Origin: Flavobacteriaceae bacterium
Lineage (GTDB): Bacteria > Bacteroidota > Bacteroidia > Flavobacteriales > Flavobacteriaceae
Reading direction: 5' to 3'
NCBI GenBank assembly: GCA_015490835.1
Contig: WFXA01000007.1
Span: 1-38,011, forward strand
DNA: 38,011 nt
Below, piece by piece: positions 17,981-25,718 of the stretch. The notes below the pieces were generated by a model. That model had not been told where the DNA came from. It saw nothing but the letters and a program-made list of their open reading frames with translations, and ran no database searches. Each line of letters begins with the position of its first letter. Positions within the stretch are counted from its first letter, which is position 1. The position numbers were made by a program, and so were the translations under genes.

Positions 17981-18364
17981 ATGAAAAACATATTGTGTAA
18001 ACGGGAAGAAATAGACCAACAAAAAATTGTGGCTTAGGAAGCCAAGTTATTTGAAAATGCTATTGCTTTTTCTAAAACGGCAAAAATGATAGGTTTAATA
18101 GGAAATGAAATTAGGCTTAAACTACTTTGGCTTTTTGCAACAGATGACTTTTGTGTTTGCGATTTAGCAGATATTTTACAAATGAGTGTTCCGGCAGTAT
18201 CACAGCATTTACGCAAATTAAAAGACTTGGATATCATTCATTTTAATCGAAAAAAACAAACCTTATTTTATTATTTAGCACCTGCAAATAAAAAACTGGT
18301 TTTGCATATTTTAGAACTCTTTCCGGAAACTAAAAAAATTAATTATGAAATTAAAGTTAGCTAA
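17981..18364 (+). pseudogene. ArsR/SmtB-family metalloregulator with an in-frame amber codon (functional from an internal start at 18086?)
   Basis: The reading frame opens at ATG 17981 (MKNILCKREEIDQQKIVA), hits TAG at 18035-18037, then continues in the same frame (EAKLFENAIAFSKTAKMIG...) to TAA 18362-18364, 127 codons in all. The part after the stop carries the complete winged helix-turn-helix (IRLKLLWLF, MSVPAVSQHLRKLKDLDII) and the metal motif FCVCDL. The lost N-terminus contains a Cys (residue 6) that in CadC-like sensors belongs to the metal site. Translation could restart at ATG 18086 (92 residues). The stop may be a real null or partial mutation, readthrough, or a sequencing error. It overlaps merTP by 20 bases. 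Confidence 0.72.
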
Positions 18365-18926
18365 CAAATCGGCTCTTACGGGCTTACTTGCCGCTGTAGC
18401 ATCTTCGGCTTGTTGTATCCCACCTCTTATTGCTTTAGTAGCAGGTATTGGCGGTGGCGCAAGTGCTTTTTCATGGATAGAACCTGCACGTCCTTTTTTA
18501 ATTGCTTTTGCTATACTTGCAATAGGGTATGCTTGGTATTCTTATTTTAAAAAAAAGAAAAATACAAAAAGTTGCTGTGTGGGTAAACCTAAGTTTTATC
18601 AAACAAAAGGCTATTTAATAGCAATTACACTGTTTGCTGTATTGTCTATAGGGTATCCGTATTATTCGTATTTGTTTGCAAATAACACCAAGACAACTGC
18701 TATTAGTAACAAGGAACACGTTAATACCGTGCAACTAAAGGTAAAAGGAATGACTTGTATTGGTTGCGAAACCACGATAAATACAAATTTGATAAAGCTA
18801 AAAGGAGTACTTTCTTCTCAGGCTTCGTATAAAAAAGAATTAACTACGGTAAGATATGACTCAACAACGGTTACCCTTTCAGCCATAAAAAAAAATATAG
18901 CTAATAGCGGTTATAAAGTTGAGTAA
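18345..18926 (+). CDS. merTP: Mercuric transport fusion protein MerTP
   Basis: 193 residues. An N-terminal MerT-like part with three hydrophobic spans (about 11-35, 48-67, 90-110) has the Cys pair CC at 23-24 in the first span and a second pair CC at 77-78 in the loop. A C-terminal HMA (MerP-like) domain of about 65 residues has the metal motif GMTCIGC (Cys138, Cys141). This fused form is known in Bacteroidota and moves Hg(II) from the periplasm to the cytoplasm. It overlaps the regulator gene by 20 bases, so translation is probably coupled. No mercuric reductase gene follows in this window, so the metal may be another soft metal or merA is elsewhere. Confidence 0.85.
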   Translation: MKLKLANKSALTGLLAAVASSACCIPPLIALVAGIGGGASAFSWIEPARPFLIAFAILAIGYAWYSYFKKKKNTKSCCVGKPKFYQTKGYLIAITLFAVLSIGYPYYSYLFANNTKTTAISNKEHVNTVQLKVKGMTCIGCETTINTNLIKLKGVLSSQASYKKELTTVRYDSTTVTLSAIKKNIANSGYKVE

Positions 18927-23542: not shown

Positions 23543-23579
23543 AAAAAAAGGCTACTCTAAAAAAAGAGTAGCCTTTTTT
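23543..23579 (-). terminator. Terminator of rnpB
   Basis: AGAGTAGCC/GGCTACTCT, a nine-base-pair stem (23550-23558 with 23565-23573) directly after the rnpB 3' end, with a T-run on the minus strand (23543-23549). A-T flanks also make it bidirectional. Confidence 0.85.
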
Positions 23580-23898
23580 GCAAGTCTATAAGCCGGATTC
23601 TGTACCTTGATGTTAGTCAAGCTTCTCATCATTTATCTGGGTTTGTTGTTACCAACAAACTCTAGCTGCCTACCCTCTTGCATCGAGCGGGAACTCTCAA
23701 GCACAAGTTTACGTGGCATTTCACCGCATAGAGTTTACCCGATTTCACTACAGCATTACCTGTACATTCTTTCTGTTGCACTTGTCCTATCCCGAAAATA
23801 AATCGGAACGACGGCTGTTAGCCGCTATGCTTCCCTATGGTGTCCGGACTTTCCTTCCTAAAGGTGATAAACACCAATAGAACGATGAGACGACTTGC
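23580..23898 (-). ncRNA. rnpB: RNase P RNA, class A
   Basis: About 319 bases on the minus strand. The RNA is the ribozyme that matures tRNA 5' ends. It contains the conserved GGAAAGTCCGGAC core early (23840-23860), and ends with ACAGAATCCGGCTTA (23586-23605), the standard 3' end. The first seven bases GCAAGTC pair with the last seven GACTTGC to form P1. The region between shows the usual P-stems, including the loop near 23645-23662 (TTTGTTG/CAACAAA). A -7 element lies just upstream and a terminator just downstream, so it is a compact stand-alone unit. Confidence 0.95.
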
Positions 23899-23902
23899 GG
23901 TG

Positions 23903-24014: not shown

Positions 24015-25718
24015 ATGGAACACTTTATTGTTTCGGCACGAAAATACCGTCCTACAGAATTTAAGGATGTTGTGGGACAACAAGCTATTACAAATACGCT
24101 TGAAAATGCCATTGCCAGTAATCATCTGGCACAAGCTCTCTTGTTTACCGGTCCTAGAGGTGTTGGAAAAACCAGTTGCGCCAGAATATTAGCCAAACGT
24201 ATAAATCAAGAAGACGGTCTCGACAATCCGGATGAAGATTTTGCCTTTAATATTTTCGAGTTGGATGCCGCCTCTAACAATTCGGTAGATGACATTCGAA
24301 ATTTAATAGACCAAGTTAGAATCCCGCCTCAAGTTGGCAGGTACAAAGTCTATATTATAGACGAAGTACATATGCTATCGTCGGCAGCTTTTAATGCCTT
24401 TTTAAAAACACTTGAAGAACCACCAAAACACGCTATTTTTATTCTTGCAACTACCGAAAAACATAAAATTATTCCTACCATTTTATCTCGGTGTCAAATA
24501 TTTGATTTTAAACGAATTACCGTAACTGATATAAAAAATCATTTAAAAAATGTTGCACAAAAAGAAGGAGTTGATGCCGAAGATGACGCACTTCATATTA
24601 TTGCGCAAAAAGCAGATGGAGCATTACGAGATGCTTTATCTATTTTTGACAGAGTTGTTAGCTTTTCGGGTAAAAAATTAACACGAGAAGCCGTTACCGA
24701 AAATTTAAATGTACTGGATTACACCTATTATTTTAACATAACAGATTTAATAATTAACAATAACATACCTTCTTTACTACTTGCCTTTGACACTATTGTT
24801 TCTAAAGGATTTGATGCGCACCATTTTATCATGGGTATGGCTTCACATTTTAGAGATTTATTAGTTTGTAAAAATCCAAGCACCATTAATTTATTAGAAG
24901 TTGGTGATGGGGTAAAAGAAATGTATTTAAAACAAAGTAATGACGTAACGCATCAATTTTTAATTGATGCTATTGAACTGGCAAACAACTGCGATTTAAA
25001 ATATAAAACAAGCCGAAATCAACGCCTGTTAGTTGAACTTACCTTACTAAAACTAGCCTCTCTTACTTTTGAAGGTGAAAAAAAAAAGCCTAGCCATATA
25101 ATAATTCCGCCCAATTTGCTTGTGCTAAATAGTGAGCATACTAGCAAGCAAGCTAATCAAAACACACAATCTTTTCGTACAGATACTAAACAAATTATAA
25201 CATCTGAAAAAAAAGAGCCTACTGAACCTAAAGCAACTAAAAAGGTTATCACAGAAAAAAAGAAAGTATCAGCGTTTTCGATTAAAAGCATTCAGAAGAA
25301 AAACGAACTACAAAGAGAATTAGACGCAAAACAAATAACCAAAACAGCCAAGTTAGATTCTGCTTTCTCGCAAGAAGAATTAGAAGAAGCTTGGAATGAA
25401 TATGCCGAAAGAGTAAAAAAGAAAGGGCAATTAAACTTTTATTCTCATCTAAAAATGTGTACACCGGTTTTAAAAAAAACCACTTTATATTTAGAATACC
25501 CAAATAATACAATTAAAGTTGAAGTAGAACGCGCAAAGGGAGAATTACTAGCGTTTTTACAAAACAAGTTAAGCAATCATTTTATAGATATTTCGATTAA
25601 AGTAAATGAAACTGCCGAGAAAAAGTTTGTTTACACGCCTAGAGAAAAGTTTGAAAAACTAAACGAAATAAACCCTAACTTAGATTTACTACGAAAAGAA
25701 TTTGATTTGGAAATTTAA
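24015..25718 (+). CDS. dnaX: DNA polymerase III subunit gamma/tau
   Basis: 567 residues. The tau subunit bridges the clamp loader and polymerase. Walker A is GPRGVGKTS (46-54), Walker B VYIIDEVHM (112-120), sensor 1 at ATT (145-147), and the SRC arginine finger Arg159; domain III ends near residue 355. The zinc-binding cysteines of E. coli DnaX are missing (only short insertion 'INQEDGLDNPDEDFAFN'), which I think is usual in flavobacteria. At 25078-25087 a run of ten A residues (residues 355-358) ends domain III; shifting either way gives a stop within four to seven codons. The C-terminal 200 residues are the tau-specific Lys-rich linker and polymerase-binding region. Downstream carB is convergent. 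Confidence 0.95.
   Translation: MEHFIVSARKYRPTEFKDVVGQQAITNTLENAIASNHLAQALLFTGPRGVGKTSCARILAKRINQEDGLDNPDEDFAFNIFELDAASNNSVDDIRNLIDQVRIPPQVGRYKVYIIDEVHMLSSAAFNAFLKTLEEPPKHAIFILATTEKHKIIPTILSRCQIFDFKRITVTDIKNHLKNVAQKEGVDAEDDALHIIAQKADGALRDALSIFDRVVSFSGKKLTREAVTENLNVLDYTYYFNITDLIINNNIPSLLLAFDTIVSKGFDAHHFIMGMASHFRDLLVCKNPSTINLLEVGDGVKEMYLKQSNDVTHQFLIDAIELANNCDLKYKTSRNQRLLVELTLLKLASLTFEGEKKKPSHIIIPPNLLVLNSEHTSKQANQNTQSFRTDTKQIITSEKKEPTEPKATKKVITEKKKVSAFSIKSIQKKNELQRELDAKQITKTAKLDSAFSQEELEEAWNEYAERVKKKGQLNFYSHLKMCTPVLKKTTLYLEYPNNTIKVEVERAKGELLAFLQNKLSNHFIDISIKVNETAEKKFVYTPREKFEKLNEINPNLDLLRKEFDLEI
25078..25087 (+). promoter_or_regulatory. Candidate slippage site producing a short gamma-like DnaX
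   Basis: Ten consecutive A residues followed by G. One extra A would give K-K-K-A then TAG (359 residues); one fewer gives K-K-S-L-A-I then TAA (361 residues). The site sits at the end of the conserved clamp-loader domains. In E. coli and Thermus, gamma is made by slippage at such a site; here this is inference. Confidence 0.4.

Follow-up and report, generated by a model that had tools for sequence, protein, structure and literature searches.

Does a run of ten adenines inside a bacterial dnaX gene cause two forms of the encoded clamp-loader subunit to be made from one reading frame? The question is raised by a stretch of 38,011 nucleotides, the whole of which is here called the window, that spans positions 1 to 38,011 of contig WFXA01000007.1 in assembly GCA_015490835.1 of a Flavobacteriaceae bacterium. 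The source genome comprises 2.77 Mb in 276 contigs and is 94% complete; in what follows the family is Flavobacteriaceae, the order Flavobacteriales, the class Bacteroidia and the phylum Bacteroidota. On the forward strand at 24015-25718 lies dnaX, which encodes the tau subunit of DNA polymerase III as a full-length product of 567 amino acids (NF011531 above cut-off; TIGR02397, 3.4e-116), and within this gene, at 25078-25087, lies an A10 run. In Escherichia coli the tail that distinguishes tau binds the polymerase and the helicase. From comparison with several hundred relatives, we consider it likely that the run is a programmed transcriptional slippage site of the Thermus type, from which both a short gamma form and tau would be made.

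The dnaX gene of the window

The gene is unsplit, a single open reading frame (ORF) of 567 codons. Its clamp-loader domains I-III, residues 1-350 (24015-25064; Pfam and TIGR02397 domain edges and alignment to a PDB structure), would form the body of the predicted gamma. Pfam places the end of domain III at residue 350 and TIGR02397 at residue 347; alignment to E. coli gamma in PDB pairs residues 5-346 with its residues 4-355. The run, a candidate slippage site, follows just after, in the frame GAA AAA AAA AAG that encodes residues 355-358. With one extra A, translation would reach TAG at 25091-25093 and yield a product of 359 amino acids, while one A fewer or two extra would lead to TAA at 25099-25101 and 361 amino acids. 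The first-pass annotation was thus right to place the run at the end of the clamp-loader domains, and translation of A11 and A9 variants bears out its statement that both shifted frames stop within seven codons. Beyond the run, the tau-only tail of 209 amino acids (25089-25715) includes, by homology, a C-terminal region that is retained in split relatives. The A10 is the longest run of A or T anywhere in the window, and matches to A9 on both strands number 5 against 20.9 in dinucleotide shuffles, so that such runs are avoided there.

Relatives compared

Truncating slippage is described in PMC1088944 as hard to judge by comparison; here the approach is workable because of dense sampling. In total 390 dnaX genes including that of the window were read, and removal of three identical ones left 387. 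Codon and hairpin statistics refer to 342 of these, after 36 genes with a run shorter than nine and nine without a long frame had been dropped. The family sample took one genome per genus and gave 116 matches, all of which were inspected. Of 113 of them, 93 are unsplit and 17 split, two have an undecided layout and one carries only A5; the other three, which stand outside the statistics, are L466 (A10 and split), L467 (A8 and split) and L468 (cut by the contig end). Among the 19 genomes of the genus search, one (G009) gave no dnaX match above its paralogues. Outside the family, 50 of 117 non-family matches were read in the order, 63 of 186 in the class and 50 of 147 outside the class. Read as well were the 80 that had been kept of 582 relatives. 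Selection in the order, class and phylum combined best matches with genes chosen by hand, short open frames being somewhat favored; the share of split genes outside the family sample is therefore not representative.

Conservation of the run

At least nine As stand at the site in all 18 genes of the genus and in 205 of the 206 from the family. Further out, the figures are 44 of 50 in the order, 56 of 63 in the class and 28 of 50 elsewhere in the phylum, which brings the total to 351 of 387 genes with the window included. The site was taken as 156 nucleotides; windows of equal size from the same genes contain a run of nine or more in 7 of 2322 cases upstream and 16 of 1134 downstream, and a corresponding run of T occurs at the site in one of 387 genes. 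The length peaks sharply, with 278 of the 351 runs having exactly ten As. Although AAA is the majority lysine codon (median share 0.74), other Lys-Lys-Lys stretches in the 342 genes consist of nine As in only 9 of 132 cases. Codon usage provides a weaker control, since about 175 of the 342 genes would, by their own usage, write every lysine within the run as AAA; it is therefore position, length and stops, and not AAA by itself, that give the case its strength. The run is also retained in 23 genes whose AAA share is below one half, and it is found in all three codon phases (262, 44 and 36 genes). The A run at this site is not due to chance. The first-pass annotation had cautioned that A runs are common in such AT-rich genes, a caveat that fails for runs this long, and the loss of the run in relatives that would have told against its proposal was not found: nearly all genus and family genes, and most of those in the order and class, keep it.

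Stops in both shifted frames

Stops close behind the run are conserved in both shifted frames. When the protein was held fixed and the codons behind the run were redrawn from each gene's usage (300 simulations, 342 genes), both off-frames were expected to stop within ten codons in 104 genes, with a simulation maximum of 125; 324 genes have both stops. Taken singly, the +1 stop is present in 325 genes against 154 expected and the -1 stop in 340 against 231. The same procedure applied to 2394 pseudo-sites in these genes gave 33.9% observed and 35.0% expected. In the 18 genes of the genus alone, stops in the single frames lie within the simulations, and both together occur in 18 genes against 11.2 expected (maximum 16).

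The choice of isoleucine codons is one place where this selection can be seen. Among isoleucine codons that precede an A in the 12 codons after the run, ATA makes up 184 of 215, compared with 638 of 2953 in the core of the gene; the first isoleucine codon of a (F/Y)-I-I-P stretch is ATA, which creates a +1 TAA. Selection, exerted through synonymous codon choice, maintains the early stops of both shifted frames. Since a -1 ribosomal shift gains nothing from a +1 stop, the guard in the +1 frame points to messengers with a variable number of As.

Split genes

In 83 of the 342 genes the layout is split, meaning that the template frame is closed by a stop at the run, with the tau tail encoded in a different frame. 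Seventy-three of these need one A more in order to encode tau, and ten need one fewer or two more, which corresponds to the +1 frame. Two of the ten, L373 and L374, belong to 0.6-Mb genomes and have their run about 30 nucleotides further on; both runs are A11 with a broken template frame, L371, L372 and L375, from the same genus, have unsplit genes, and repair by slippage may be acting in this genus.

Split genes are spread widely. All ten sampled genomes of genus g121 are split with A10 (L173, L176, L177, L179, L182, L183 and L185-L188), as are both loci named Flavobacterium, three of ten from Aquimarina, and one congener of the window (L021 in genome G002, with A14). The gene of Kordia periserrulae DSM 25731 (L100) is unsplit. 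Split and unsplit genes mostly share A10, and what differs is the flanks. Parsimony requires at least 50 changes of layout on a FastTree tree of the 342 genes and 25 within the family; a second tree of the family requires 23, of which 11 are forced by well-supported branches. The layout has hence switched repeatedly. A link between split layout and the hairpin described below was looked for and is not supported.

The split genes keep their tail. Its C-terminal region is present in all 38 split genes of the family and in the single one of the genus; the order has it in 17 of 19 and the class in 15 of 18. Elsewhere in the phylum the count is 2 of 7, but there the query falls short in any case, as it also finds none of 20 unsplit genes. 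Median identity of the tail to that of the window within the family is 41% for split and 46% for unsplit genes. A separate start for the tail is unlikely for most split genes, because an ATG in the tail frame lies within 15 codons past the run in only 8 of 83, and any of ATG, GTG or TTG in 22 of 83; most must therefore make tau by a change of frame. Such layouts can be read as broken or truncated genes, and on the present comparison they should be counted as intact.

The predicted hairpin before the run

Across 337 codon columns in 177 aligned genes of family and genus, synonymous conservation is highest just 5' of the run. The top four five-codon windows of the whole gene cover codons -7 to 0, where codon 0 already holds the first As. 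The conserved stretch reads GCC TCT ATC ACT TTT GAT GGA GAA and is predicted to fold as CUCUAUC-ACUUUU-GAUGGAG, with the 3' arm touching the run.

Of 201 family genes, 151 have a perfect stem of -3 kcal/mol or lower that ends 0-2 nucleotides 5' of the run, compared with 27.0 (maximum 41) in synonymous redraws, 8.8 (maximum 18) in dinucleotide shuffles and 23 of 1005 at random places. With the limit set at -2 kcal/mol, family stems ending at 0, 1 and 2 nucleotides number 127, 133 and 147 against 23, 17 and 17, and those ending three or more nucleotides before the run show no clear excess (21 against 17 at three). The hairpin is thus conserved within the family. In the order, 12 of 42 genes have such a stem against 5.2 expected from synonymous sets (maximum 10). 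By rank of folding energy, 131 of 201 family genes, and 141 of 341 genes overall, fall in the lowest 5% at the site. Within the genus the stems differ in sequence and share their end point, as for example in L008, L011, L015 and L019.

Evidence of covariation is modest. At the register CTCTATC/GATGGAG, 80.0% of cells are paired, compared with 43-45% when the arms are slid by -1 to -3 and 72.6% (maximum 74.1) when columns are shuffled. Of 113 full stems, 98 have one sequence, and double changes are few (CTCTGTC/GACGGAG and CTCCATT/AATGGAG, two genes each).

Compensation of an absent hairpin by a longer run was considered. The raw counts suggest it (151/9 versus 41/18; Fisher 4e-6), but it is not claimed because independent pairs on the tree are too few (median p 0.5) and third-position GC differs. 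One family gene, L467 in genome G113, combines a run of only A8 and a split dnaX with a perfect stem of 6 bp (CTCTCC/GGAGAG) immediately 5' of the run; it provides a natural case in which to ask whether fewer As suffice when the hairpin is strong.

Proposed mechanism

The events that would follow at such a site can be set out as follows. On copying the A10, RNA polymerase would hold a hybrid composed entirely of A/T pairs, and ten base pairs is about the length of the RNA-DNA hybrid; the transcript could then realign on its template, giving messengers with variable numbers of As. Those with the templated number, or with three more or fewer, would encode tau, and any other number would lead to an immediate stop and to gamma without the tail. 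By rough estimate, the two products would have masses of about 40 and 64 kDa. In Flavobacteriaceae, a hairpin in the nascent RNA, with its 3' edge 0-2 nucleotides before the run and so at the upstream edge of the hybrid, probably promotes the realignment. As slippage would fill all frames, the frame in which the tail is templated would become irrelevant, and genes could drift between the unsplit and the split layout. The frequent switching of layout would find its explanation here, because slippage spreads transcripts over every frame.

We infer from the comparisons that slippage takes place, that RNA polymerase is its agent, that it governs the ratio of the products and that the hairpin assists it. 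The proposal of the first-pass annotation that the run gives rise to a short gamma is in this way supported, by the conserved run, by the selected stops and by relatives that would need slippage to make tau at all. It had also pointed to related sites in both E. coli and Thermus; the RNA-polymerase slippage of Thermus fits better and the ribosomal frameshift of E. coli less well, because +1 stops are selected and ten of the 83 split genes need the +1 frame, though ribosomes may contribute in the window's own gene. The verdict is of a slippage site that appears to be old in Bacteroidota, with the hairpin as an apparent refinement in Flavobacteriaceae. On balance, we lean towards the wider view that the class and much of the phylum set their ratio of tau to gamma by slippage at A10, that the device is tuned by a hairpin in Flavobacteriaceae, that gene layouts drift, and that a ribosomal signal takes over in some lineages that lost the run, which would leave two machines able to replace each other at one site.

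Weighing the alternatives

A number of observations weigh against transcriptional slippage with an assisting hairpin. Several concern the hairpin. That of the window itself (5' arm GCCT, bulged C and TC, 25056-25062; 3' arm GAAGGT, 25071-25076, predicted by folding to end one nucleotide 5' of the run) is bulged and weak, at -4.0 kcal/mol with z -0.9, and 40 of 200 shuffles fold as well; that of L005, the nearest congener of the window, reaches -5.6. Stems in the genus, at 8 of 17 against 2.6 expected (maximum 7), only just attain significance, and those in the class (12 of 54 against 7.7, maximum 14) and the rest of the phylum (3 of 27 against 2.3, maximum 5) do not exceed the synonymous sets significantly. 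In the rank test the lowest 5% takes in no more than 1 of 17 genes of the genus, 1 of 42 of the order, 7 of 54 of the class and 1 of 27 of the phylum; of its four control places, two are themselves mildly in excess (45 and 35 of 342, with 17 expected). With regard to layout, a homopolymer error in a single draft genome could mimic a split gene. Assembly faults cannot explain all the splits, because named strains (Aquimarina latercula DSM 2041, which is L106, Flavobacterium beibuense and Bizionia argentinensis) and one-contig genomes (L173, L182, L308, L317 and L318) are among them. Further, 36 of the 387 genes lack the run, and of the 35 of these that were analyzed 30 have the unsplit layout, while the frame of the other five closes at the site; the making of gamma by slippage is therefore not obligatory in the phylum. 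Lastly, the window holds A_AAA_AAG, which is the ribosomal heptamer of E. coli dnaX, in the zero frame at 25082-25088, where the run ends, and a UUU anticodon is carried by the only lysine tRNA detected in its genome (29 matches, with 150 of 202 candidates scored in a genome 94% complete), so that ribosomes could slip here too.

This last point leads to the best supported of the rival explanations, namely ribosomal -1 frameshifting as in E. coli on A_AAA_AAA or A_AAA_AAG, with a stop one codon on and no role for RNA polymerase. We regard it as improbable for the window. The -1 stop does lie one codon past the heptamer there, and the run closes with an AAG codon in 11 of 18 genes of the genus and 56 of 201 of the family. 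However, the elements that accompany the heptamer in E. coli are largely missing. In the window, the 60 nucleotides downstream fold at -9.4 kcal/mol with z -0.4, in a stem that begins 28 nucleotides past the run, which does not amount to a stimulatory hairpin. Over the 342 genes, structure behind the run is weaker by energy than at random places (median -6.25 versus -8.1 kcal/mol, and below -10 kcal/mol in 64 versus 119 genes), whereas by z below -2 it is slightly commoner (31 versus 19). The z test is weak in this setting, given that the hairpin of the E. coli control has -19.7 kcal/mol with a z of only 0.06. A downstream hairpin like that of E. coli is accordingly not enriched by energy and slightly so by z.

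The same applies to the Shine-Dalgarno-like element. No GGAG, AGGA or GAGG occurs in the 25 nucleotides before the run in the window, and sites of this kind within 25 nucleotides upstream in 177 of the 342 genes touch the run itself in 128. The spacing of E. coli, ten nucleotides to the heptamer, is equivalent to 5-7 nucleotides before the start of the run, and a site stands there in just nine genes. According to PMC9976891, ribosomes of Bacteroidia do not recognize Shine-Dalgarno-like sites.

Nor is the -1 frame the only one that matters, since the +1 stop is selected as well and some split genes depend on that frame. The hairpin, too, sits upstream and 0-2 nucleotides from the run. A ribosome that reads an A run covers the stretch directly upstream, which makes the hairpin hard to explain as a ribosomal signal.

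Ribosomal signals do appear where the run has gone. Four of the five run-less genes that end at the site keep the tail in the -1 frame (L347, L348, L400 and L329, relatives from the order, class and family), and in three of them a ribosomal heptamer precedes the zero-frame stop. L347 and L348 have A_AAA_AAG and then the stop, with hairpins of -26.5 kcal/mol (z -5.1) and -20.8 kcal/mol (z -1.4), respectively, within 60 nucleotides behind it; that of L347 has 14 bp and lies right behind the stop site. L400 has U_UUA_AAA before the stop, and L329 has GGAAAAG followed by a stop. From motif and structure, the four look like ribosomal frameshift sites that replaced slippage. Although these genes speak for the ribosomal explanation in their own lineages, the presence of E. 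coli-type signals just where the run is gone provides an internal contrast, and suggests that ribosomal frameshifting is usable in these bacteria. Separately, L370, from a genome of about 0.3 Mb (G153), encodes a DnaX of 345 amino acids, and no tau tail was found downstream on the same strand; it may represent a gamma-only clamp loader of a reduced genome.

Phase variation at the level of DNA, in which changes of tract length in the genome would switch cells between layouts, is very unlikely. Long homopolymers mutate fast, and the many changes of layout on the tree would agree with such a process. However, the length is held narrowly at ten, split and unsplit genes alike mostly have A10 and differ in their flanks, and selected stops in both frames fit heterogeneity among messengers better; a cell without tau is, besides, unlikely to live.

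That the run is a mere lysine patch at a domain edge, written as AAA by codon bias and giving no short form, is scarcely credible: the preference for AAA would account for an all-AAA patch in about half of the genes, but not for the rarity of such runs in other lysine triplets, its occurrence in every phase and in genes that disfavor AAA, the selection of stop and hairpin codons at synonymous sites, or the split genes that need a change of frame for tau.

Significance and further observations

The importance of a short gamma beside tau is disputed, according to PMC5009743. A device that would yield both forms has been under strong and lasting selection in a large part of a phylum, which argues that gamma matters. 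Many of the species concerned are culturable, and in these the run could be recoded so as to abolish gamma. The occurrence of two devices at one site would further allow slippage by RNA polymerase and by the ribosome to be compared directly.

The genome from which the window derives has other long A runs. Among 30 of 75 pattern matches inspected, runs of A10 to A14 lie in long open frames (346-520 codons, stop to stop) at L035, L036, L040, L045, L046 and L059, and it is possible that these are further slippage genes or contingency tracts. Within the window, an A9 run at 18887-18895 lies about 30 nucleotides before the stop of the ORF at 18345-18926. Upstream of dnaX and divergent from it is a gene for RNase P RNA (RF00010, 176.7 bits; 23573-23901, reverse strand), and a sequence shared by L007, L012, L013, L014 and L020 about 0.5 kb before their dnaX may be an RNase P RNA gene too. 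Finally, L169, in a record titled Rhizobium sp. Q54 (a metagenome-assembled genome), has a dnaX 78% identical to that of the window and is probably misnamed or from a contaminated bin.

Comparison with known systems

Slippage in dnaX and split dnaX genes are both already known. A literature search, which covered few subscription journals, returned nothing on conservation across Bacteroidota, on selection of dual stops or on a dnaX hairpin. The E. coli gene resembles that of the window in that gamma is produced from within tau, and the window holds the same heptamer with its close -1 stop; it differs in that the window has neither a Shine-Dalgarno-like element at the E. coli spacing nor a strong downstream hairpin, and in that both frames are guarded.

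The closest counterpart is dnaX of Thermus thermophilus, where transcriptional slippage at nine As, with stops in both frames, makes gamma about half of the product (Larsen et al. 2000, as reported in PMC1088944 and PMC5009743). The two share a run of nine As, here ten, past the clamp-loader part of the gene, close stops in both shifted frames and a long form encoded in one ORF. In Thermus the run is placed seven-eighths of the way into the coding sequence (PMC1088944), in contrast to its position directly behind domain III here, and the passages on Thermus in PMC1088944 and PMC5009743 mention no hairpin. Expression was measured in Thermus, whereas the present system is known from its genes.

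Split genes of the kind found in 83 of our 342 relatives were recognized earlier with GeneTack (PMC3711429). That paper describes 17 split dnaX genes from 12 genera, nine of them with ten As, and suggests slippage; three others of the 17, with 9, 8 and 7 As, are named and come from Chloroherpeton thalassium and two Chlorobium species. The search was for broken ORFs and would miss unsplit sites such as that of the window, and the cases given are all -1, whereas ten of ours need the other direction.

For the hairpin, the nearest parallel is an insertion sequence element of Roseiflexus, in which a nascent RNA stem-loop directly 5' of the slippery run has been proposed to melt the hybrid and so to favor realignment (PMC5009743). 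The hybrid within RNA polymerase is given there as 9-10 bp; once ten As have been copied, it would therefore consist entirely of rA-dT pairs, with the hairpin at its upstream edge. The likeness thus extends to the position of the predicted hairpin, directly 5' of the run and at the edge of the RNA-DNA hybrid. The Roseiflexus site is T5C5, loses one base and needs its hairpin, whereas the A10 of dnaX is expected to be slippery by itself. The one system belongs to a mobile element and the other to a replication gene, in which a function for the hairpin is deduced from its conservation and position. A hairpin that acts beside the A run of dnaX would carry hairpin-aided slippage beyond a mobile element and into a core gene of replication.

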